DNA from: Thysanoteuthis rhombus
Lineage: Eukaryota > Mollusca > Cephalopoda > Oegopsida > Thysanoteuthidae
Length of the DNA: 64,000 nucleotides
NCBI GenBank assembly: GCA_963457665.1
Contig: OY735206.1
Span: 26,384,210 to 26,448,209, forward strand
Direction of reading: 5' to 3'
Shown here: one piece after another, positions 6,441 to 61,185 of the stretch
Numbering within the stretch: position 1 is the first letter of the stretch
How the letters are laid out: every line of letters begins with the position of its first letter
The notes under the pieces: model-generated
What the model was told of the DNA's origin: nothing
The model's input: only the letters and a program-made list of their open reading frames with translations
The model's database searches: none
Position numbers and translations under genes: made by a program

Positions 6441-7430
6441 CACTGCCAAATAATTATCATGCAACACATTACAGGTAAGCATGGCAGAGCATTGCTTAAC
6501 ACGACCAATGGTTCATAAAATCATAAATATACTGCCTGTTCCTACTGAGTCATTAGTTCCTATTCCCCAGCTACATCACTTGCTTGGAGATGAGTGATGT
6601 GCTCCATAGGTGACTATACAAACATAACACCAGGAAAACAACCCTTTTTGCTTGGTCAGCAGTCTTGAACTGTTCTGCAACATTTTTTCGCTAGATAACT
6701 GAAGGACTAAATGAGGATTGTGAGGAAGTTTGTTTCAACGTGAATTTCAGCTAAACTAATACCATGAACAAAAAACATGTTGAGTATAACGACACAACGA
6801 TCAAAATTGAAAATATAGATCCGAAGGAAGTAGACCCCTACAACAACATAAGACAACAAATATCCATGAAATATTCAAAAGGAAGAGAAGCCAAGCGAAG
6901 AATTGCACAAGGTTGGCAAATTTTTAGCAGAGCAAGCACAACATTCAAGATCAAGGTAATCGCACTAGTCTTTGAAAAAGACGGTTCACTATCAAAACAT
7001 TTCCCCAGTCGCCACCTATGGAGCTGTAACAAAGAACCAAACCATGAGTTTTGCCTCCAAACTGAAAACTATGCAACGGTAACAGGACAGAATCATTATC
7101 AACTTCACATCGAAAGAGCATAAGACACCGTAGTATAACTAAAAAACAGACAGGTTTCCGTGATATCAGAAAAAAACACTGAAAACTGTCGTGAGACGAG
7201 CATTTTGTAAGAATCTCAGATAAATGCTTGACGTCACGACTCACAGCGTGGATCCCCGGAGATCATATGCAAAATTGTGGTTGACAGGAAGTACGTCAGA
7301 CGGACACGCTAGACAAAATGAGAAAGTACAGGCTCAGTGACGCCTATAATAGAGAGGTCTGGTTGATCTTGGTGGGGAGAGGGGTCTGCATTTAACAATA
7401 TATGATGAAAGGTAACTGCTGATGATGATA
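6440..7430 (+). mobile_element. RTE-like LINE, internally deleted (leader joined to reverse transcriptase C-terminus)
   Basis: The part at about 6500-6620 aligns by eye with the leader of the first RTE copy (shared pieces include TGTTCCT, a CTACATCA/CCACATCA box and the GTGCTCCA-like end). After a short gap, the open frame 6764-7123 gives a protein with the RTE C-terminal pattern: a VDPYNNIRQQISM block matching the VD.YIYLGQ.I.M signature, then EAKRRIAQGWQIFSRASTTFK. The 3' end, about 7320-7370, encodes a RKYRLSDAYNREVW match to the family's FRKYWLRDAHDREVW. The endonuclease and catalytic palm are absent, so the copy arose by internal deletion or by joining of two pieces. The frame changes after about 7000. 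It faces the copy at 7600-8370 tail to tail. Confidence 0.75.
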
Positions 7431-7600: not shown

Positions 7601-8370
7601 ATTAAATAATTTTGGATGAATATAAGATATAACTGTTGGACCGAGGACTCACCAGACCTCTCTATCGTTGACGTCACGGGGCCAATACTTTCTTAACTTG
7701 TTTACACCAGCACACAATCTCATATTAGCCGGCAACAATCTCACATATGATCTCAGAAGATCCATGTTGTGATTTATGATGTCTGTTAGTTCTTCAAATT
7801 TCTTGCAGCATGACCAGCCCATTGCCATTTAAGTTTTCTAAAGGATTTTATGATATGTCTGTCTATTTTTTTTTTTTTTTGTATACCGTATTCTCCATAT
7901 GAGATCCAGTATGGTGTCTGCCAGTGCCAGTGGCGTGGTTTACAGTTTGAGGAATAATATTTTGATTAAATTCCCTGTCTCAGTTTCGTAGGTGACTATC
8001 AGGGGAATGCATTGGTTGTACACTTGTCTTTTGAAAATTGATGGAATTTTCTCGTTCTCAAAAGTTGAGATTGCACTACCAAAAGGTTGCCATCTTAGAC
8101 TGATTCTTTGCCGGATTTCTTTTCTTTTTTTTTTCAAGGTTTCAAAAAGATTCATGATCCTAGGTAGATGTAGAGGCAATGTTTTTATGTTAGTATTTTT
8201 CAATTTAGATATCTTTTCATCTTTGTTCTCAACATATTTATTGTACAAGTCTTTTGTTTCACTGAAGTTTATGCGTAATTCAACTCTTTGTTGTCGTTGT
8301 TCTGTTTATCTAGCATTACGTATTCAAGAACAGAAGTCAGTGGAGATAATTTCGTTTGATAGATAACATG
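7600..8370 (-). mobile_element. RTE-like LINE 3' fragment (reverse transcriptase C-terminus)
   Basis: On the minus strand, the frame 8248-7940 reads IRQRISLRWQPFGSAISTFE, then KIPSIFKRQVYNQC and VTYETETG. These match the RTE signatures I+RRI+LGW.AFG+ASAIF, K+IPICLKRQVYNQCILP and VTYGAETW. Farther downstream on the same strand (about 7705-7630) the LRKYWPRDVNDREVW block marks the 3' end. The copy is truncated on its 5' side within the reverse transcriptase. Several substitutions at conserved places and a frame change show it is inactive. Confidence 0.8.
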
Positions 8371-23489: not shown

Positions 23490-24355
23490 CCACTGAACGT
23501 AGCATTTATCGACTTCCGAAACGGAGGCCATCACTCGACAAGGTGTATATCCAGTATATGTCGAAGTGCTGAAACGTGTATGCAATCACAGCAGCTCTTT
23601 CATCAGGTTACATAAAGGAGTAAGACAAGGCGATACCAGCTCACCCAAACTGTTCGCCGCCTGCCTTGAGATGGTCTCCAGAAGACTAGACTGGGAGAGT
23701 TCAGGAATCAGAATAGACGGCGAGAAAACACTGAGATCAAAATCGAAGACACAAAACCGGAGAAAGTAGATCACCACATCTACCTAAGAAAACAAATCTC
23801 CATGAGACCCCCAAAAGGAGAGGATATCAAGCGAAAAATCAAACTATGATGGTAAGTTTATGGCAGAACAAGCTCAACCTTCAGAGATAAGAAGATCCCA
23901 TTAATCCTAAAAAGACAGATGTATAACCAATGCATCCTCCCAATAGTCACTTATGGAGCTGAAATATGGAACCTAACCAAGAGACAGATCTGCAAATTGA
24001 GAACTATGCAACGTGCACATGAAAAAATTATACTACTCCTCACTTGGCGAGACTGCAAGACAGCACAGTACAACAGGGAAAAGACAACAATCAGGGATAT
24101 CATAGAACCCATTAAAAAAACTCAAATGGCAGTGGACTGGCCATGTTACACGAATGGTGGTCAACTGATGGACATTGCAAATCACGACATGGATACCCTG
24201 GGACCTCACGCAGCACTGAAGCTGACAAATTATCAGATGGAATGACGAGCTAGACAAATTCAGAAAGTACTAGAAACATCCACGACGCCCATGATAGACA
24301 AGTGTGACGAATCCTGGGGAAGGTCTATGTCCAACAACGGACTTTGAATGACTAC

Positions 24356-25044: not shown

Positions 25045-25165
25045 TGATAAGGGCCCAGGGAAACTTGACCAGATGAAGATTTCACTCAAACCAGGAATCA
25101 AACCTGGGACCTCCGGCATAAGAGGCAGATATGCTACCCATTACATTAACGAAATGGAAAACTAC
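25045..25165 (-). mobile_element. tRNA-derived SINE-like copy
   Basis: On the minus strand a tRNA-like head reads TAATGGGTAGCATATCTGCC (A-box region), then TCTTATGCCGGAGG and the B box GGTTTGATTCC at about 25090-25100. The spacing between boxes fits a tRNA gene, but the acceptor stem and a CCA-side partner cannot be built, so it is a SINE or tRNA pseudogene and not a working tRNA. Confidence 0.6.
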
Positions 25166-39458: not shown

Positions 39459-40005
39459 GTTTTGCATAAATACCAACATATATGTGAATTCACTTCTAGT
39501 TTAATCCGAATTAATATTTACGTAAATACATGTAAAATACTTTTATCCAAACCTTCATCGATACAAAGATATTTTCAAAGCAAATTAAAATTATCGTGTA
39601 TCTATAGGTATTGCCATATTGATGAATTTGACAGGGATAGTCACAGAAACCTATCCTGTTTTTTGATATATCCGAACCAGGACAATCGAGTGACAGCTGA
39701 AAAACTCCGAAATTAAGAATAAAATTACAAATAAAACTAAATTACTTGCAATAAAAGCGGTAATTACATGTTAAACTGTTGTATTACAAGACGTTGAAAT
39801 AACAGTCTGATTAAAAGTGGCTGGCATGACGCACAGTCATAGATATTTTGGGACTGTATATAAAAATATCAAAACTAAATCTCTTTACCGTTACAAGTTG
39901 GAAAATCGACATGGCTATATATCGAGTAAGCTTAACAACTTTGAACACTAAACATTGAAAAACTTTTTAATCGATTCTTTCTGTGTGTTGCTTCAGTCAC
40001 CTATT
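39457..40005. other. Unrecognised AT-rich sequence
   Basis: No supported feature. Confidence 0.35.
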
Positions 40006-40440
40006 TCCCCAGTATCTGCCAACGTAATTTATGTAATTTTTATAAGTGTTTTTTTTTCCTTACTCCCCCAATTTGTTTATTATTGTGTAGTGTATAAATG
40101 ATTTCTTGTTTACATCAGTTGTTTACCATGTAATCGTTTAGGGTTTTTTAAAAACAAAACACTTACATTAACACTCGCACCGCAGCAGTTTTGATCAAAT
40201 ACCACCTCCTTTTATTATATGATTTATGCCACACATTTAATTAGTCGCTTTATACAAGGTTTTATGTGTATCTTACATTGATATCATTTTAGCTTTTATT
40301 TTTTGAAGCGAGTCTTATTTACGTAAGTCACCATAAGAACCTTTTTAACAATGAGGGATCAATAAGTATAACAACAGACATAACTTGCTCTTCGTGTCAT
40401 TTTTATTGGAAGTTCACCCATGTGAATATTAAATCCGATG
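40005..40440 (+). repeat. Unclassified dispersed repeat, copy 1 (about 430 bp)
   Basis: This block aligns by eye with 51140-51575 in the same orientation. Shared landmarks in order are CATTAACACTCGCACCGCAG CAG / CATCAACATTGCACCCCAGC AG (40172 and 51299), TTAATTAGTC-like, TATACAAGGTTTTATGTGTA, TTACGTAAGTCACC and CAATGAGGGATCAATAAGTA (40359). Non-coding. An AATAA-type signal near the end of copy 2 (CAGTAAATAAAA) would suit a retroelement 3' end or LTR, but no polymerase sequence is attached. Orientation is assigned arbitrarily. Confidence 0.6.
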
Positions 40441-40744
40441 TACAATGTTTACGGGAGGTTTTGATTTTCACGCTTGAACTTTGAATATTTCAACTGATCT
40501 TGGAATCTCTTACTGGATGATTGAAACTTTCTGTACACAAAATCATTACTTGCGCTTACTAGTTTCACTCATTATCCGAATGATGATATCAATTGCGTTT
40601 TGCAACCTTATTGAACCGTTTTTGCGTGAGGGAAAGTTGGGAGGGGGAGATTGACCGAGAGAAAAATTTACTGATACCTTTTTTTAAGACAAAATTGATT
40701 GAAAAATTTTGAGACGCAGTTTTTGGAATTTTAGGTGCCGGGTA

Positions 40745-51140: not shown

Positions 51141-51575
51141 ATATGCAGATGTAATTTAAGTACATTTTTCCGGTGTTTCCCTTCCCCCTGTTCCATGTAT
51201 ACTTTGTTATTATTGTACACTACATAAAATTACACTTCTTGGGATCATTGGCTATTCACTATGTAACTATTATGGAGATTTGGAAACAAAACAGGTACAT
51301 CAACATTGCACCCCAGCAGTGTTAATCAAGAACTACGTCCCTTTCATACTAATTAACCCAGTCACGTAGTTAGTCATTCTATATAGGGTGTTATGAGTAT
51401 TATATATTGATACCATTATATACCATATAACAATTACTTTTCGAAACATGGCTTACTTACATAGGTCACCCAAAAAATGTATTGAACGATGAGAGATCAG
51501 TAAATAAAACAATTAGTGTGACATTTCTATTGAATGTTCACCCCTGTGGATCATAAATCTGTTAAGTCTTAAATC
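51140..51575 (+). repeat. Unclassified dispersed repeat, copy 2 (about 430 bp)
   Basis: Same order of landmarks as 40005-40440: CATCAACATTGCACCCCAGC AG at 51299, then AGTCATTCTATATAGGGTGT, TTACTTTTCGAAACATGGCT, TTACATAGGTCACC and CGATGAGAGATCAGTAAATA near 51486. Identity is moderate, with small indels throughout. The family is not recognised. Confidence 0.6.
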
Positions 51576-51579
51576 TGTT

Positions 51580-52060
51580 AAATCTCTGAGCTTAACTTAT
51601 GATATCACAAGAATCACTATTTATCAATTTTATTTCTGTACTTCCTTTAGCATATTCTTTGATTTTCGTTATTATTTTATTATGGCTAAGCTGATAAGTT
51701 TTAATGGGATCAGAATGTCTAATCAGCGCTCAATAAAATCTTAACAATTTCAAAGCATTGATTGACCATTCTCACGACTGGGGAAACAGCTTTTGTTATA
51801 AAACAAAGAAATTCAAGGGTTTCACTATATTCTGATATATCCTGATAATAGTGTTTTGGAAAATATGTAAGATTGAATACTACTTGTTCTGAAAGGAATT
51901 CTCACAATATGGCACTGAAAGATAAATATTCCGTCCCCAACCCTCCAGGAATGCTGCTTGCGTCTTCTTATGTTCATATTTTAATTCAAGATCTTTAGGG
52001 AATGAATTATTTTCCGAATTAAGAGAACATAAGTCAATAAAAAGGGGACAGCCTAAATGT
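51580..52060. other. Unrecognised sequence
   Basis: No supported feature up to the edge of the inverted repeat. Confidence 0.35.
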
Positions 52061-52063
52061 AAT

Positions 52064-52880
52064 CGAGTTTGTTTTATATTACTTCAAATTAAAGTTGACA
52101 CGAAAACGGGTTCGGGTCTATGTGAATACAAATTTGTCCGATAGGGGCGTAGAGTCAATCCTCATAGGGACTTGTATAATCTGATGAGATTTTTTATTTC
52201 CTGTATTAACATTCCCCAATAAGGTGACTAACAATACATTTAAGGGTAAAATAGGTCATACGTTCTTCTGTTTTACATCTGATGGCGTTAGAGTTTATAA
52301 ACCAAGGATAGTTACTATTTCCTTGTGTAAATGTTAAGTCTATTAAATTCTTTATCAAGATATTCATGAGAAATTTCTGTACTAAGAATCGCAGATTGAG
52401 ATAGATTTAACATCTTCATGGGTATTTATAATGTTGGATCATTCTTTAACAGACATGGAAATATTTACCATCCAAAAGAGATTTGAGTTATTACGGAATA
52501 TATTTTTATCATAGAGTTGCTGTATATGATTGTATATAGTTTTTAAAACTCTCCAAAACAGTTTTAGTTCTAAAAACTCTATAGGCTACAATGAAGCGAG
52601 CATCCATCGGATTTTCACGCATTTTAAGTATGCAATACATAATTGGTGACTTTGTATTTCTTCAATTTATTCAAGTCCCAGGTTTTGGCATAGTACTATG
52701 TTATCAATCACAATATGATCTGGTGCACGAGTAGATATTTCATACATAGATAAATATGTACTTTTAAAATTAACCTCAAACAAAATCCCCTAGATATATG
52801 TATATTTTTTTTTACTTATAAATGCTATATTATTTGCGGCTTCATCATTTCGAACTGTAACACAATTTTTCTGAACTTCA
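52064..52880 (-). mobile_element. Reverse transcriptase fragment of the 'PMG.D..P' type, left copy
   Basis: On the minus strand the sequence reads SISICDS then TEISHEYLDKEFNR (near 52400-52340), matching the 'ISTYDFSTLYT.IPHDKL' block of a family of animal retroelement reverse transcriptases. Then comes QVPMRIDSTPLSDKFVF (about 52172-52122), matching 'GIPMG.D.APF.ANLFL'. Upstream, MDARFIVAYRVFRTK near 52610 matches '..RFI.SS...T..'. These are the first two palm blocks; the FR(Y/F)IDD block is outside the arm. The copy is dead (stops, changed Gly). The class (possibly Penelope-like) cannot be settled from this. Confidence 0.65.
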
Positions 52881-53009
52881 AAGAGATTTACTAATACTTG
52901 AGAATTTTTATTGTTTGACTTCTTCTTAGGGGGTTGGAGGCCCTTCAACCTTTGGATTTTTGGATTTGCAAAACTGATTACTTTTTTCCCTAATAAACAT
53001 CGGAACGTT

Positions 53010-53016
53010 TTATTGT

Positions 53017-53094
<78 letters not shown>

Positions 53095-53114
53095 AGAGAA
53101 CAAGAAATGATATT

Positions 53115-53162
<48 letters not shown>

Positions 53163-53185
53163 CGTGTGTGTGTGTGTGTGTTGAT
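53010..53185. repeat. (TA)n and (TG)n microsatellites inside the left arm
   Basis: TA run 53018-53090, then a 28-bp break, TA run about 53117-53144 and TG run to 53180. The matching place in the right arm has a single TA run. Confidence 0.97.
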
Positions 53186-53639
53186 TAGATATGATCTGAT
53201 GAAATGAAAGTTCGTATTACATTTCAATCTTTTTCATTATTGCAAGGGCATATACAATGAATTTTGAGAGTTACAACCTGCATTTAGTTTACATGTTTGA
53301 GGTCAAGGAAAAAAAATTAGTGTTACTTTTATATTTCAGTCGGAGCAAGAACGGTTTTGCATAGTGTCGGTAAGATTAAAGTTGGTTCGGAATGAGAAAG
53401 ATCTATGAGAGGCCGGGTCAGAAGGTGTCTGCTACCTGTTCTGGTGGTCGTTCGGCATTTCCTTGATAAGGAAGGTAGTTAAAGAAAAGGGGGTTACAAT
53501 GGTCAGTTTCCAGGAGAGAGAATTTTTTTTCGGTCGAACCTAGGAAAACTCACCACTGTAACTTCATTTTCAACCAAGCCCATCTCTTTAAAAATATTTG
53601 TGTCTTTGACACGCTGATTCATGGACGCAACTTTTATAT

Positions 53640-54020
53640 CCTGATGGAAGGAATAATCATTATCATCATCAAAAACAGCTTATTAACATCCATCCTGAGA
53701 CTTGGACTTTGCCTAAAATTTGCTGGACTTCTCTATCATAGGTATCCTGTGCTGATACTTTCTGAATGTATCTATCATGTCACGCCATCTTACTATCTGT
53801 CGGCCATAATTTCGCTTATGATATCTGGAGATCTACGCCCTGATGTCCAACAATTGTGAGACATTCTTGCAACATATTCAGTCCATTACAAATAGGGTTT
53901 TTCAACAGTTCCCCTGATGTCTCAGACTCCGGTATTCTCTCTGATATGCTGTGCAGTCTTATGATCTTTGCACGTGTGGTTGAGCATAATCCTCTCACGT
54001 GCACGTTGCATGGTTCGAAA
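53640..54020 (-). mobile_element. RTE-like LINE 3' end, running into the left arm
   Basis: On the minus strand from about 54010 the sequence reads MQRAREMMMLNHTCKDHKTA then RENTGVRDIRGTVEK and WTEYVARMSHNCW. These match the RTE C-terminal TMQRAHERIMLGITWRDRKT, KT+V+DII. and W.GH.ARR. Near 53770-53700 it reads IDTFRKYQHRIPMIEKSS, the 3' end block, followed by a TGATGATGATAATGAT tail (53668-53650). Only the last 150 bp are shared with the right arm, so the two RTE copies have different 5' limits. Confidence 0.8.
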
Positions 54021-54129
54021 AAAATAATCAGTTAATAGCAAACAGTTCATTTAAGAAATGGTACTGGCACACATAAAACACCCTTTTAAGAAAAGAAGAA
54101 ATCTCATCATCAATCAATAATATTAAGTG

Positions 54130-54686
54130 TAGAAAAAAAAAACACCTTTCTTTTTCTCTGCCCCATATATAACAACGCCTCTCCATCAATTTCACAACAC
54201 CATCTCCCCAATAAAGAAATGAAAATAAAAAGCACTTTTCCGAAAAATGACCATTTTAGCCTCTCTCCCCTCACTACCTTTTTTATCTAAGAGTTGCCAA
54301 TTACCTTCAGAGACAGCGAACAAACGAAATCTGCTCCTGCCTGTCACGGACCCTCCTGATATCAAACCAGACTTTATTCTCACCTGAACAGATACCAAAA
54401 TCCTTAGCTCCTACGAAACAACTAATCCATTCAGAAGTATCCTCATGTTTTTTTTTGGGGGGGGGGGATTCTCAGCCTCAAACATGTAAACAGCAGAGTT
54501 CCTTGTGGACGGCTGCAAATATTTTCTTCTGGAAAAGATGATTGGCATCAATCTAGATGCATCGAAATATGACCAAGGAAAATTGATTATAAAAATTGAT
54601 CTGTAACACACACTTCCTCCTGACCTTTTTCCCTTAACTTTCTAATTCTTACTCACATCAACACACAAACGCCCACACCCAAACCC

Positions 54687-54735
<49 letters not shown>
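54130..54735 (+). mobile_element. Anonymous TA-tailed block, related to the block in the inverted repeat
   Basis: The sequence shares a series of landmarks with 57830-58297: ACCATTTTAGCCTCTCTCCC / ACCATTGTAACCCCCTTTTC, TTATCTAAGAGTTGCCAA / TTATCTACTAAATGCCAA, and CCTCAAACATGTAAACAGCA / CCTCAAACATGTAACCATCA. Both end in ACACACA-rich sequence and (TA)n. It is non-coding and looks like one family of TA-tailed non-autonomous elements or 3' leaders. A G10 run is at about 54459-54468. Confidence 0.5.
54689..54734. repeat. (TA)n microsatellite, about 46 bp
   Basis: Perfect TA run at the end of the anonymous block. Confidence 0.97.
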
Positions 54736-54737
<2 letters not shown>

Positions 54738-54935
54738 TGCTATGTATTATAGTAAACCTGTGTGTTGCAACTGAAAGTCGGTACTTAGGATGGGCGAGGT
54801 TTTTTTCCTGAAAAGCCTGATAATTTTTCACTATTATACCCCATCTCTCCCTTCCAATGTCACATTTGACTGAAAATCGTCTCTCAGGGATCTTCTTTCC
54901 CTGGAAGCCAAACATTTCCAACTTGAGAACCAATC

Positions 54936-55334
54936 CTCTTACCCAGGTCGAAAAACTAATGCAGTGAAAAGTTGGATTTGTTAAGTGAAAACAAACTTGA
55001 AAATTTCAAAGAAATAATATGGTACCCATGTACGACGAGTAACATTAACAGGTCTATTTCGTTATAAATAGAAACTCTCACGTGAACAACGTCTTCAAAA
55101 AACCGGCTGTGTTCGAGTCGATTGAGTTGATGATCAATGAATTTTCTCACATTTTGTTGGATAGTGATCAATAACAAAATTTAAACTTTTAAAAGATGTG
55201 TGACACAAAATTATCGATTTATTCAGCGTAAACTTGCATTTCAGACTCGACTCCAGAATAAAAATGTATTTTGGTGGAGATTTTTTTTTAAATGATTTCT
55301 GTCAAAGACATTATAAGGAGTGAATATTTGAATT
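54936..55334. other. Unrecognised sequence
   Basis: No supported feature. Confidence 0.35.
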
Positions 55335-55510
55335 TTTAGCCCTTTAGCTCAATCGTTGCAGCCTGTGCCCGTGGATTCATATATCTATAGCCAGCAAGCC
55401 AGCCAGACAAACTTGAAAAATTGAAGAACTCTTTCCCTGATTGTTTCTAATTAGGTGGCACAGTCATAGAAATACACGAAGCTTGGCCAAGATTCATTAA
55501 CATGAAATAA
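55335..55510 (+). mobile_element. tRNA-related SINE-like copy, family B, second copy
   Basis: The head TTTAGCTCAATCGTTGCAGC (A-box-like, about 55343-55362) is followed by CGTGGATTCATATA (weak B box) and AGCCAGCAAGCCAGCCAGAC. Order and spacing match the copy at 9216. Confidence 0.55.
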
Positions 55511-56110
55511 ACAAAATATAGTACTGCAGTAATATTGCGCAATAATCATGCTAGTAATTGCTCATCAGCATGTGGCCATGTCACTCTGACAATCCTATCC
55601 TCACTTGAAGAGAGTCAATAAAGATAGATTTGTGAGGGATCCTTGCAATTATCTTGAACCCCATTTTACAAATTGGTCTCAGCATGTTCATCTGAAATTG
55701 CTTTTCCCAGATGTAATTGCGATCTATTCCAACCTCTTCCATCATTACAGGGAAAGTCAGTTAGTACATGCATTCTCTTCCCAACTCGTACGTATCTTTC
55801 CATTCGCCGTCAAAAACTACGCACGTCATTCTGGCTGTGTTCAATCCAAATAAACGTCGGGCTTACTCGTTTAACATGAATAATATGATTGTAAAGTTTA
55901 TGTGGCAAAGTTACTTGTTGTCATGTGGAAGTGCCGTCAAGTTGTTAGATGCTTAATTCATTCTGGTATATGCGCTTATACACGCGTACACACGTTTTAT
56001 TACCGGGACAAGACAGGGTACAGCTCTCGTCCTGGGAGTTTGTGATCATTATGAAACGGCTGATAGTACCTTTTACGTTAACAACACAGCTCGGGATGTC
56101 AATTATTAGC
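55510..56110. other. Unrecognised sequence with overlapping short open frames
   Basis: Three overlapping plus frames of 82, 68 and 62 codons lie between 55605 and 55956. None shows a known domain; three frames being open together suggests low stop density by chance. Confidence 0.3.
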
Positions 56111-56210
56111 TAAGTGTACAGGGAACTTGCAAATAGTGGGAATCGAACTCGAGACTTTCTGTGTATAAGACAGGTGTTCGAGGCATTACACCGTACAAGT
56201 GGATAAAGGA
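56110..56210 (-). mobile_element. tRNA-derived SINE-like copy
   Basis: The minus strand has a perfect B box, GAGTTCGATTCCC, at about 56139-56151, preceded by CTGTCTTATACACAGAAAGT and an A-box-like TGTAATGCCTCGAACACC. The layout is a tRNA head. The part extending to about 56000 on the same strand could be the SINE body. Confidence 0.6.
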
Positions 56211-56374
56211 AATAGATGTGCATATTGAAGTTTTGAATTCTCCAGATAGCTGACTAATTTTTTATTGAAAACATATTGATTCACTCTGTCAAATTCAAAT
56301 ATGTGCACAAATTTTTGCCTCAATGAAAATAATTCAACCAAATAGGATCTTTGCGTTAGCTTGCCGCGAAAAAA

Positions 56375-56480
56375 ATAGAGGGAAATTGCTTAGCTGCCCG
56401 GGAAACAAGATCAACGGGACGTGTTCAAATTCTGACTGGAACCAACCACCTCCATTTCGCACTAATGCTCTTAGCAGAAA
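56375..56480 (+). mobile_element. Possible tRNA-derived SINE-like copy
   Basis: TTGCTTAGCTGCCCGGGAAA (A-box-like, 56387) and GTGTTCAAATTCTGACTGG (B-box-like, 56422) are in tRNA-like order. It is of opposite strand to the neighbour at 56.1 kb. Confidence 0.4.
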
Positions 56481-57590
56481 GGTATGAACACATCTTTTAC
56501 CACAATTATTCTGAAAAAATAGAAAAGGGTGAAGTGAATCACGCCTTTAAGTTTATTTTACATTGCAAACCAGAGCGAAGAGAATGTTCGTGATATGTAC
56601 AGCTCCAGCAGTGACGGTTGAAACTATAGTCGGTTTCAATGCAATATAAGCATACTTGTTCTCACTTATTGATTACTCAAGGATCAAAGCATTGTTTTTA
56701 GTACATTCATAATATGGACTGAGATCTTCATATTTGCTGCTTACGACATAGCACTTCCATCGTTGGGCCGCTCAGCCTTCTTGATATTGTGGGGGAATTT
56801 TAGATGAAACATTCACATCAGGGACTTGGGGATAGACGATTGGAGAGAAAAAATGGCAACAGGTTTGGTATGTCACTTGATAGAAACCCTCACCCGAGAA
56901 ACATTTTGGGAGCATGTCATTTTGGGGATGATCCATCAAAAGATGGACCCCAAAAGGAGATCAATGGAGAAATAGATAATTCACCTTTTTTTTATGTTTG
57001 GTAGGGATCACGACTCACAAGCGTTCAAATTTTTGAAAAACAGTTAACACTTCTAAGAATGCAATTCAGTATACGCTAACACTGTAAATTGAACGCCCGT
57101 ACAAAAAGGCTTCTTCAAAGGGTATCTTTAAAAGAACAAAAAGAACGTTTGTTTAGAAGTAGATGTTCACATTTTCAACCCTCTAATTTTATCCATCCGC
57201 ACGTGTGGCACACACACATTTATACATATATACATTGCCAGCCACACACGTTTGAAACTGAAGATACATGTGATGACAGTTTTCATGACGATTTACGTTA
57301 ACGTTCTCTAATGAAAGAAAATTGTATTTTTCGTATCTTACCAATGTGTTCTCCCTCAATGGTATCAGCTGGATATGTGTGTCCATCGTGAAAGTGCCTG
57401 CTTTGTCTCTAAACATCACAAATACTGCAAGGAAATACTATGTCATCAATTAATTTCATGTACATTGCTGTCAATAAAAGCATGAGTTCTGTTCTGTGAA
57501 AGTCCAGTATGTATCTTTCCGGCTATCTTAACACACAAAAATTGTACACTGCGCCAAAATTACCAGAAATCCAAAGTGAAATTGTTGCCC
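56480..57590. other. Unrecognised sequence
   Basis: Short open frames (56804-57004, 57089-57301) show no known domain. This stretch is the part of the inverted-repeat spacer next to the right arm. Confidence 0.35.
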
Positions 57591-57745
57591 ACAAATAGTA
57601 AGATGGCGTGACAAAATAGATACATTCAGAAGGTATTGGCTCCGTGATGCCCATGATAAAGAAGTCTAGCAAATTTTAGGCAAAGTCAAAGTCTCTGGAC
57701 AGATGTTAACAAGTTGCTTTTGATGATGATAATGATTATTCCTTG
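57591..57745 (+). mobile_element. RTE-like LINE 3' end, 5'-truncated
   Basis: At about 57618-57662 it reads TFRRYWLRDAHDKEV, the family's 3' end block, then KVKVSGQMLTSC and a TTTTGATGATGATAATGATT tail. This is the shortest RTE piece in the window, and the arm edge falls within it. Confidence 0.75.
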
Positions 57746-57829
57746 CATTAGGATATAGATACTACTTCATTGCAATTGCATGTCAAAGAGTCATAGATAT
57801 TCTTAAAGAGATGGTCTTGGTGGAAAATG

Positions 57830-58231
57830 AAGTTACGGTTGTGAATGTTTCTATGTTCGACCGAAAAAAAATTCTCTTTCCTGAAAACTGACCATTGTAA
57901 CCCCCTTTTCTCTAACTATCTTCCTTATCTACTAAATGCCAAACGACCATCAAAACAGGTAGCAGACACCTTCTGACCCGGCCTCTCATAGATCCTTCTC
58001 ATTCCGAACCAACTTTGATCTTACCAACACTACGCGAACCCTTCCTGCTCCGACTTAACCATAGAAGTAACACGAATAATCCTATTTATTTCCTTGACCT
58101 CAAACATGTAACCATCATAATGCAGGTTGCATCTCTCAAAATTCATTGAAAATGCCCACGAAATAATGAAAAAGATTGAAATGTAATACGACCTTTCATT
58201 TCGTCAGATCACTTCACATTAACACACATAC

Positions 58232-58297
<66 letters not shown>
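57830..58297 (+). mobile_element. Anonymous TA-tailed block inside the right arm
   Basis: Non-coding block ending in ACACACATACGTG and a TA run (58237-58296). It has relatives in the left arm (minus, about 53190-53620) and at 54130-54735. See the latter entry for shared landmarks. Confidence 0.5.
58237..58297. repeat. (TA)n microsatellite, about 60 bp
   Basis: Perfect TA run in the right arm. Confidence 0.97.
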
Positions 58298-58300
<3 letters not shown>

Positions 58301-58399
58301 AACACGTTTCGATATATGTTAGAGTAGAAAGTAATTAGTTTGAAATCAAAAAATCCAAAGGTTGAAAGGCTTCCAACCCCCTAAAAGAGAAGTCAAAAA

Positions 58400-59260
58400 A
58401 TAAAAATTCTCAAGTATTAGTAAATCTCTTTGAAGTTCAGAAAAATTGTGTTACAGTTCGAAATGATGAAGCCGCAAATTATATGGCATTGATATGTAAA
58501 AAAATATACATGTATTCAGAGGACTTTGTTTGAAGTGAGTTTTGAAAGAACGAGGTCATCTATGTATAAAATATCTACTTGTGGACCAGATCATATTGTG
58601 ATTGATGACATAGTACTATGCCAAAACCTGGGAAATGAATAAATTGAAGAAATACAAAGTCACCAATTATGTATTGCATACTTAAAATGCGTGAAAATCC
58701 GATGGATGCTCGCTTCATTGTAACCTATAGAGTTTTTAGAACTAAAGCTGTTTCGAGAGTTTTTAATACAATGTGCAATCATATCGTGTAATTTCATAAT
58801 GAAAATAAATTCTGTGATGGTTCAAATCTCTTTTGGGTGGTAAATATTTCTATGCCTGTTAAAGAAAGATTGAACATTATAAATACCCATGAAGGTGTTA
58901 AATCTATCTCAATCTACGATTCTTAGTACAGAAATTTCTCATGAATATCTTGATAAAGAATTTAATAGACATGACATTTACGCAAGGAAATAGTAACTAT
59001 CCTTGGTTAATAAACTCTAACGCTACCCGATGTAAAACAGAAGAAAACATGAATTACTTCACCCTTAAATATATTGTTATAGTATATATAGTATGTTAAT
59101 ATAGGAAATAAAGAATCTGATCAGATTATACATGTCCCTATGGGGATTGACTCTACCCCCCCTATCGGACAAATTTGTATTTACATAGACTTGAACCCGT
59201 TTTCGTGTCAACTTTAATTTGAAGTAATATAAAACAAACTGGATAATATCGTTTAGGGAT
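58400..59260 (+). mobile_element. Reverse transcriptase fragment of the 'PMG.D..P' type, right copy
   Basis: One frame at about 58820-58930 reads SNLFWVVNISMPVKERLNII then NTHEGVKSISIYDS, matching the family's 'CFWIV.NS.EVL..L..IN...KSISTYDFSTLYT'. After a frameshift, YTEISHEYLDKEFN follows. At about 59095-59160 it reads YVNIGNKESDQIIHVPMGID then STPP, which matches 'GIPMG.D.AP'. This copy keeps the PMG.D residues that the left copy has partly lost. The endonuclease part, the DD block and the 3' end are missing. Confidence 0.7.
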
Positions 59261-60665: not shown

Positions 60666-61185
60666 GTCTTATTAAAAACCGTCAGCCAAAACTGCCAACG
60701 TAAGTTTCTTTAGATTTTGAATGGGCCTTGCTGTCTCATGCGTACAGGTTTCGCAAATAGAGCAAAATGGCTGAAGTTTTATCCTTAAAACGAAACATTT
60801 TAAAAAGCTCTTTGCTATATAGTGAAAGAGATTAATTTATAATGTAACTTTATGCTGAATTGATCCCTCAGTTTACCCCCGCCAGTGTTCATTCTTGTTT
60901 TGTTGGAAATTAAGATTTTTCGATGATTCCTATCCAAAGAAAAGGCGTGAGATGTGACTTTTGAATTGATCACCTTTTTTTCCATTTTTGATAATTCAGC
61001 AGAGTGGCATACTACCAGAAGACAGTGATAACTTGATAGTGTTTGAGGAGTGACTAACAAGATCTGCTAAATAAAGATGTGAAAACTGAAATTGGAAACC
61101 CACCAGCATGTATCAATGGTTTGCAAATAGGAGAACATTATGTCTATCTTCAATGCTCATTGAGTAGCCATACTCGAAAGAAAAG
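60665..61185. other. Unrecognised sequence between purine-rich tracts
   Basis: No supported feature. Confidence 0.35.

Follow-up and report, generated by a model that had tools for sequence, protein, structure and literature searches.

A dead transposon mosaic and its probable inverted copy in the squid Thysanoteuthis rhombus

Introduction

Inverted repeats whose two arms undergo gene conversion with each other are reported for palindromes of the Y and X chromosomes (PMC3723533, PMC8981503) and for long inverted repeats of C. elegans (PMC1803023). Penelope-like elements and RTE LINEs are in turn listed among molluscs in the repeat annotation of Octopus vulgaris (PMC13282606). In the DNA described here, membership of these families is assigned from motifs.

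Here, an inverted repeat was analysed within a stretch of 64,000 nucleotides of Thysanoteuthis rhombus DNA (contig OY735206.1; hereafter, the window). Its two arms carry the same series of transposon fragments. The inverted repeat is real but ordinary, most likely a local duplication and not a new mobile element. We consider it highly probable that a single inverted copy of a dead mosaic was made at a site about 3.7 kb away (from arm A to arm B), after the decay of its reverse transcriptase (RT).

Structure of the inverted repeat

Self-BLAST of the window aligned positions 52062-53828 with 59244-57563 in reverse orientation (minus strand), at 82.4% identity over 1782 columns (E = 0); this is the strongest self-match within the 64 kb. 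This single alignment bears out the two opposed arms described in the earlier note, whose edges were right to about 30 bases; the identity of about 90% estimated there by eye proved too high, both overall and outside (TA)n, where it is 87.4% (1597 aligned columns; arm A 52062-53840 minus 53015-53185). By section, identity is 88.9% in the RT part, 88.7% in the middle and 81.2% on the RTE side. Because the whole arm is aligned, the match extends well beyond the RTE end and the microsatellite. When low-complexity sequence was masked, seven pairs of at least 100 columns remained, namely the arms, a 183-column direct repeat (84%) and five pairs at 66-76%; the arms thus rank well above both chance and the window's transposon pairs.

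In both arms, an RTE-like 3' end is followed by a short repeat and then by the 3' part of a TA-tailed repeat (X); (TA)n and a 5'-truncated RT piece complete the series, whose main blocks stand in the order given by the earlier note. The parts are as follows.

52062..53828, minus strand: arm A, probable donor site of the mosaic, with transposons running on past both edges (self-BLAST)
57563..59244, plus strand: arm B, probable inverted copy, cut within a transposon at both ends (self-BLAST; family loci matches)
51147..52981, minus strand: RT piece of arm A, probably Penelope-like, 5'-truncated at (TA)n (nhmmer)
58343..59247, plus strand: RT piece of arm B, ending inside the RT (nhmmer, profile positions 16-964)
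53655..54016, minus strand: RTE-like 3' end of arm A, extending inward beyond the arm edge (blastn against loci elsewhere in the genome)
57563..57740, plus strand: RTE-like 3' end of arm B, cut at 57563 (genome loci comparison)
53191..53530, minus strand: 3' part of repeat X in arm A (nhmmer, X profile)
57863..58222, plus strand: 3' part of repeat X in arm B (nhmmer, X profile)
53019..53181, no strand: (TA)n then (TG)n in arm A (Tandem Repeats Finder)
58235..58296, no strand: (TA)31 in arm B (Tandem Repeats Finder)
53829..57562, no strand: spacer between the arms, 3734 bp

The X profile matches arm A at 53530-52992 (8.3e-31), its low end entering (TA)n, and arm B at 57863-58332 (3.1e-38), its high end entering (TA)n. 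With an 18-copy genome profile, nhmmer recovers the arm A RT piece as 52981-51605 (3.2e-255) and 51608-51147 (2.9e-58), about 450 profile positions being absent at 51605-51608. The spacer holds, besides short repeats, a longer copy of X (54026-54665, plus strand) with (TA)n at 54690-54734.

The RT piece is probably a Penelope-like element, judging from motifs that are visible by eye in translations and in an alignment of six loci of the family: DFxxLYTxIP and F-x-DD, which we take to be typical of Penelope-like RT. These same by-eye readings make the earlier description of an "unrelated reverse transcriptase" right in kind. The label is drawn from these motifs, as Pfam matched no RT in 12 pieces of the family (4 + 8); a PDB profile search with the N-terminal part gave two weak matches, neither of them an RT. 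For the RTE-like pieces, a tail-like TGATGATGATAATGAT run can be seen by eye within 57715-57740 in arm B, and the open reading frame 23503-23769 of the window, which adjoins an RTE-like piece, scores weakly against RVT_1 (E 0.01; 16 bits, short of the 29.6 cut-off). The word Naiad did not occur among the papers listed by a literature search on Naiad-type elements and microsatellites.

Copies elsewhere in the genome

The 2.73-Gb genome was searched with the whole arm and with its inner blocks, common words being skipped and the best 40 candidates scored each time. In the whole-arm search all blocks were present in the two arms, and the 38 other candidates carried the RT part alone, some with (TA)n. 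In the inner-block search (663 bases), arm B was recovered in full and arm A from base 4 to base 652; each of the other 38 candidates matched one part. No third copy with the same edges or the full order was thus seen among the 38 other candidates of either search. A search with one arm had been proposed earlier as the means of telling a mobile composite from a local duplication, and among the best 40 candidates these two alone held all blocks.

Decay shared by the arms

The RT pieces of the arms were aligned with 18 of the 38 other listed RT copies (L003-L008 and L022-L033; L021 is the same place as L003). Over 910 columns, 147 derived states are common to both arms, 43 are found in arm A only, 40 in arm B only and 16 are three-way. 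The arms also have deletions of 2, 1, 11, 8, 8, 9 and 5 columns in common, several of them frame-shifting; a 128-column end gap is a product of arm trimming and was left out of this count. Shared substitutions fall evenly over the codon positions (25, 33 and 33, p = 0.47). In the tree the arms are sisters (100/100), with a stem of 0.22 and tips of 0.062 and 0.063. Because frame-shifting deletions and evenly spread substitutions are common to both arms, the RT was dead before it was copied.

Edges of the arms and direction of copying

The edges of the duplicated segment are independent of the ends of the elements. Arm B is cut within both its RTE piece and its RT piece; in arm A the former extends ~190 bp further and the latter at least 450 bp further. 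At the outer edge, the match to arm A continues outward beyond 52062 in 17 of the 18 RT family loci, 13 of which reach 51615-51653 in one piece; L028 has no match past 52062, and the outward match of L029 is a separate piece. At the corresponding edge of arm B none of the 18 loci has an RT match past 59247, all ending at or before that position, and the 18-copy RT profile agrees with these locus matches. At the inner edge, the arm A flank (53829-54030) is matched by 7 of 11 RTE-bearing loci and the arm B flank (57300-57562) by none of the 11. Taken alone, this inner edge says less than the outer one, since three of the 11 loci elsewhere also stop nearby (in arm A coordinates, L006 at 53826, L018 at 53831-53848 and L011 at 53871); in L025 the RTE match reaches the end of its locus. 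The direction of copying can be read because just one arm has transposons that extend beyond its edges: as both continue in arm A alone, arm A is taken as the original and arm B as the inverted copy.

At the arm B junctions, only a 5-base inverted match was seen. A comparison of 41-base stretches, one from each edge, gave no direct repeat of at least five bases; age weakens this test. The event is old, so a repair scar in the form of microhomology is unreadable at the junctions.

Clustered differences between the arms

The differences between the arms are unevenly distributed. In a control in which badly aligned stretches were masked in all rows, arms included, they were, at each of four window sizes, more clustered than in any of the 136 family pairs that could be used (17 of 153 pairs, those with L029, had fewer than 600 well-aligned columns and were dropped); by the z-score of the longest run, one of the 136 pairs was as high as the arms. 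Without masking, 32 to 37 of the 153 pairs were as clustered. Clustering is weaker in the inner blocks (P 0.02 to 0.10). By the masked control, though not by the unmasked one, later conversion is likely, and patchy arm-to-arm gene conversion may have kept some stretches of 50-90 bases identical.

Two other sources of pattern were considered and set aside. Selection on the RT as the origin of the identical patches is not supported, given the fairly flat family divergence along the block (0.10-0.18 per 60-column block) and patches whose distance from the family majority is nearly that of the remaining sequence: for arm A, 19.3% in the patches and 24.1% outside them with runs of at least 40, and 19.7% and 25.1% with runs of 22. 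That the patches are somewhat closer to the majority nevertheless counts against conversion. Across the 60-column blocks, arm clustering and family divergence are uncorrelated (rho -0.16, p 0.57). A strand-biased A>G change, whether RNA-editing-like or pairing-preserving, proved unstable between parts of the arms, the transition counts being 41 vs 23 in the RT part (p = 0.03; 21 vs 8 for polarised private changes), 23 vs 27 in the inner part (p = 0.67) and 64 vs 50 overall (p = 0.22).

Proposed origin and alternative explanations

Arm A would have arisen as a chance mosaic, in which an RTE-like 3' end came to lie with a short repeat and a 5'-truncated copy of X, and a Penelope-like RT, likewise 5'-truncated, was joined to them at (TA)n. 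Following decay of the RT, about 1.7 kb of this mosaic would have been copied once, inverted, to a site some 3.7 kb off, presumably during DNA repair, when a break or a stalled fork led to templated insertion or template switching. Conversion in patches between the two arms may have come afterwards.

A larger inverted duplication, in which deletions at both ends later trimmed arm B, is unlikely. The age of the arms leaves time for such deletions, and the arm A RT piece itself lacks ~450 profile positions; however, two extra events are required, no more arm-to-arm match appeared when the comparison was carried 120 bases beyond each edge without gaps, and only nine matches elsewhere, all short and weak, were found for arm B's right flank besides itself. 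Another route to a cut arm B is 3' transduction, in which a transcript begun in the arm A RTE would have passed its 3' end, read on through X and (TA)n as far as the RT piece, and been inserted with a 5' truncation. Read on the plus strand, arm B does start within RTE and continue into X, (TA)n and RT as expected. Yet no simple-repeat or poly(A) tail is seen at 59244, the 41-base edge stretches lack the direct repeat looked for, and a landing less than 4 kb from the source would be a coincidence in a genome of 2.73 Gb, all of which makes this route decidedly improbable.

The earlier note had offered three readings: one mobile unit, a segmental inverted duplication and a hairpin-prone site. The second is supported, with the full order in two arms only among the best 40 candidates per search and arm B edges inside transposons whose sequence runs on in arm A. 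A composite mobile unit that has defined edges and reached its two copies by transposition agrees with the identical order and orientation of the blocks, but it has very little left to recommend it: 0 of 38 other candidates per search carry the full order or the same edges, arm B ends inside RTE and RT, an edge direct repeat of at least five bases is lacking, and the shared frame-shifting deletions point to a source already dead. It is very unlikely that the locus is a transcribed hairpin, its RNA folding into dsRNA that gives rise to small RNAs or undergoes RNA editing, and its pairing kept in patches by selection and not by gene conversion alone. Least credible of all is a false inverted duplicate made in assembly. 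Long inverted repeats are a known assembly problem, but 12.6% divergence outside (TA)n is hard to reconcile with a duplicated read or a haplotype fold-back.

Comparison with known systems

A single copying event from arm A to arm B, the preferred reading, implies that a dead transposon mosaic copied by DNA repair can pass for a new composite element. If the patchy homogeneity reflects conversion, the locus is also a small case of arm-to-arm conversion in inverted repeats that are short, old and diverged. The arm pair changes no general view.

Local inverted duplication by template switching, as in the MMBIR model (PMC2621351), resembles this locus in its short stretch, its one inverted copy near the source and its edges that ignore element boundaries, whereas neither microhomology nor an extra junction is readable here. 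The palindromes and C. elegans repeats (PMC3723533, PMC8981503, PMC1803023) are reported to have arms that are >99% alike or nearly perfect, in contrast to the present arms, which are short, made of dead transposons and 87% alike outside (TA)n. What they have in common is a pair of inverted arms in which some stretches are more similar than the rest.

Structure of the inverted arms

Comparison of the window with itself aligns two arms in opposite orientation, 52062-53828 and 59244-57563, at 82.4% identity over 1782 columns; outside the (TA)n tract the identity rises to 87.4% over 1597 columns. An earlier note had placed these arms correctly, but its likeness of about 90 percent, judged by eye, was slightly too high. 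The pair is the strongest of seven window self-matches of at least 100 columns, the remainder being a direct repeat of 183 columns, 84% identical, and five pairs with 66-76% identity. Self-pairs at 67-70% identity (6799-7096 with 23735-24031; 7760-8129 with 24194-23813) are presumably RTE-like pieces, and a tRNA-like match at 25083-25155 on the minus strand (32.5 bits; Rfam threshold 29) is perhaps a tRNA-derived short repeat.

Arm A, read on the minus strand, and arm B, read on the plus strand, carry the same succession of blocks, and the order proposed in that note (RTE 3' end, TA-tailed block, (TA)n, reverse transcriptase) is indeed found in both.

Blocks of the arms, in order
53655-54016, minus strand: RTE-like 3' end, arm A
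57563-57740, plus strand: RTE-like 3' end, arm B
57746-57862: short repeat of ~115 bp (arm B)
53530 down to ~53191: 3' part of the TA-tailed repeat X, arm A (X profile)
57863 to ~58222: 3' part of X, arm B (X profile)
Both arms: (TA)n, in arm A also with (TG)n
Both arms, last block: reverse transcriptase (RT) piece (RT profile)

X is a repeat family. A profile built from five other copies finds shorter copies in both arms and a longer one in the spacer (54026-54796, plus strand, 6e-110) that is oriented as in arm B; all of these run into (TA)n, and the single match elsewhere in the window is weak (24388-24246, 1e-4). The RT family, which on its motifs we provisionally take to be Penelope-like, shows RT motifs by eye in translations of its other copies; neither Pfam, queried with 12 pieces, nor a profile search of the PDB gave an RT match. 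The family is numerous: a 194-aa piece matches in all 150 scored genome places, its own included, with stops inside 135 of them. Another fragment of this family, covering its later part (profile positions 1991-2495), lies at 39977-40443 on the minus strand.

Copies elsewhere in the genome

When the genome was searched with one arm (57591-59245), as the earlier note had suggested, only the two arms matched full length among the best 40 scored candidates; the other 38 aligned with nothing beyond the RT part and, in some cases, (TA)n, at 67-74%. The inner blocks of arm B (663 bases) gave a similar picture among their best 40: arm B matched over its full length and arm A over 4-652, whereas each of the remaining 38 matched one part only, two of them at the short repeat. 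Since only the best candidates were scored, this is good rather than exhaustive evidence that the full order exists only here.

In five of 38 other RT copies (C14:3021731, C19:8296635, C3:2173188, C2:64897592 and C32:22342640), the arrangement of the arms recurs, with (TA)n at most 30 bp from the point of 5' truncation. It stands on the 3' side of the copy at C14:46954805; at C44:13768632 it is ~175 bp from the truncation point. RT copies beside (TA)n may reflect insertion into such tracts.

Direction of copying

Outward of 52062, the RT of arm A is matched by 17 of 18 other family loci, and for 13 of these the match runs unbroken to 51615-51653; locus L029 matches as a separate piece only and L028 has no outward match. 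Past 59247 in arm B, none of the 18 continues the RT match; two also match, separately, at 60834-60989, a stretch without any hit to the RT profile. At the inner edge, the arm A flank 53829-54030 is matched by 7 of 11 RTE-bearing loci and the arm B flank 57300-57562 by none of them. Because three of the 11 (L006, L011, L018) end near the arm A edge, at 53826-53871, and L025 reaches its own locus end, the inner edge carries less weight than the outer one. Nearby, 57225-57283 matches L038 over 60 columns as a different small repeat, and the sequence flanking arm B on the right finds nine matches at other genome places, all of them short and weak. Arm B is thus cut inside two transposons that continue in arm A, which makes arm A the original place and arm B the copy.

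Decay and probable later exchange

Against the majority of 18 other copies, the RT part (910 columns) has 147 differing states shared by the arms, 43 in A only, 40 in B only and 16 three-way, and the arms have common deletions of 2, 1, 11, 8, 8, 9 and 5 columns. Mapped onto one open copy, the substitutions common to both arms are spread evenly over the three codon positions (25, 33 and 33 at 188, 186 and 187 sites, p = 0.47), the pattern to be expected of changes in an already dead copy; the copied RT was, by these signs, dead before duplication. In a maximum-likelihood tree of 20 rows the arms form a sister pair (100/100) whose stem measures 0.22 and whose tips measure 0.062 and 0.063 (median tip 0.13; 12 of 17 inner forks unsupported). 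Given this long stem, the arm RT may also derive from an older or separate subfamily.

The two arms are identical over stretches of 87, 81, 54 and 48 bases in the RT part, and a longest run that large arose in 0.3% of 2000 column shuffles. In an unmasked control of 153 pairs of other copies, whose alignments had badly aligned ends, 32 to 37 were as clustered as the arms; after masking, none of the remaining 136 was at four window sizes, although one reached the longest-run score of the arms. Family divergence in the RT part does not correspond to the arm-to-arm pattern. Patchy gene conversion between the arms is a reasonably likely candidate. Plus-strand A>G weakly exceeds T>C in the RT part of both arms (52062-53004 with 58310-59244, p = 0.03), an excess absent from the inner part.

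Mechanism and age

The account best supported is a single templated event, a DNA repair of some kind, that placed a copy of ~1.7 kb nearby in inverted orientation. Retrotransposition with 3' transduction could in principle supply arm B, but the closeness of arm B to its source argues against it. The 41-base stretches at the arm B edges share no direct repeat of at least 5 bases, and no other copy shares these edges among the best 40 scored candidates of each genome search. The arm pair is a real, ordinary and old inverted duplication of a dead-transposon mosaic. For scale only, one octopus study takes a JC distance of 0.2 as 56 million years (PMC13282606); if that rate held here, the 12.6% arm divergence would correspond to ~19 million years, and the 19.9% found in the RT block once identical runs of at least 22 columns are set aside to ~32 million years.
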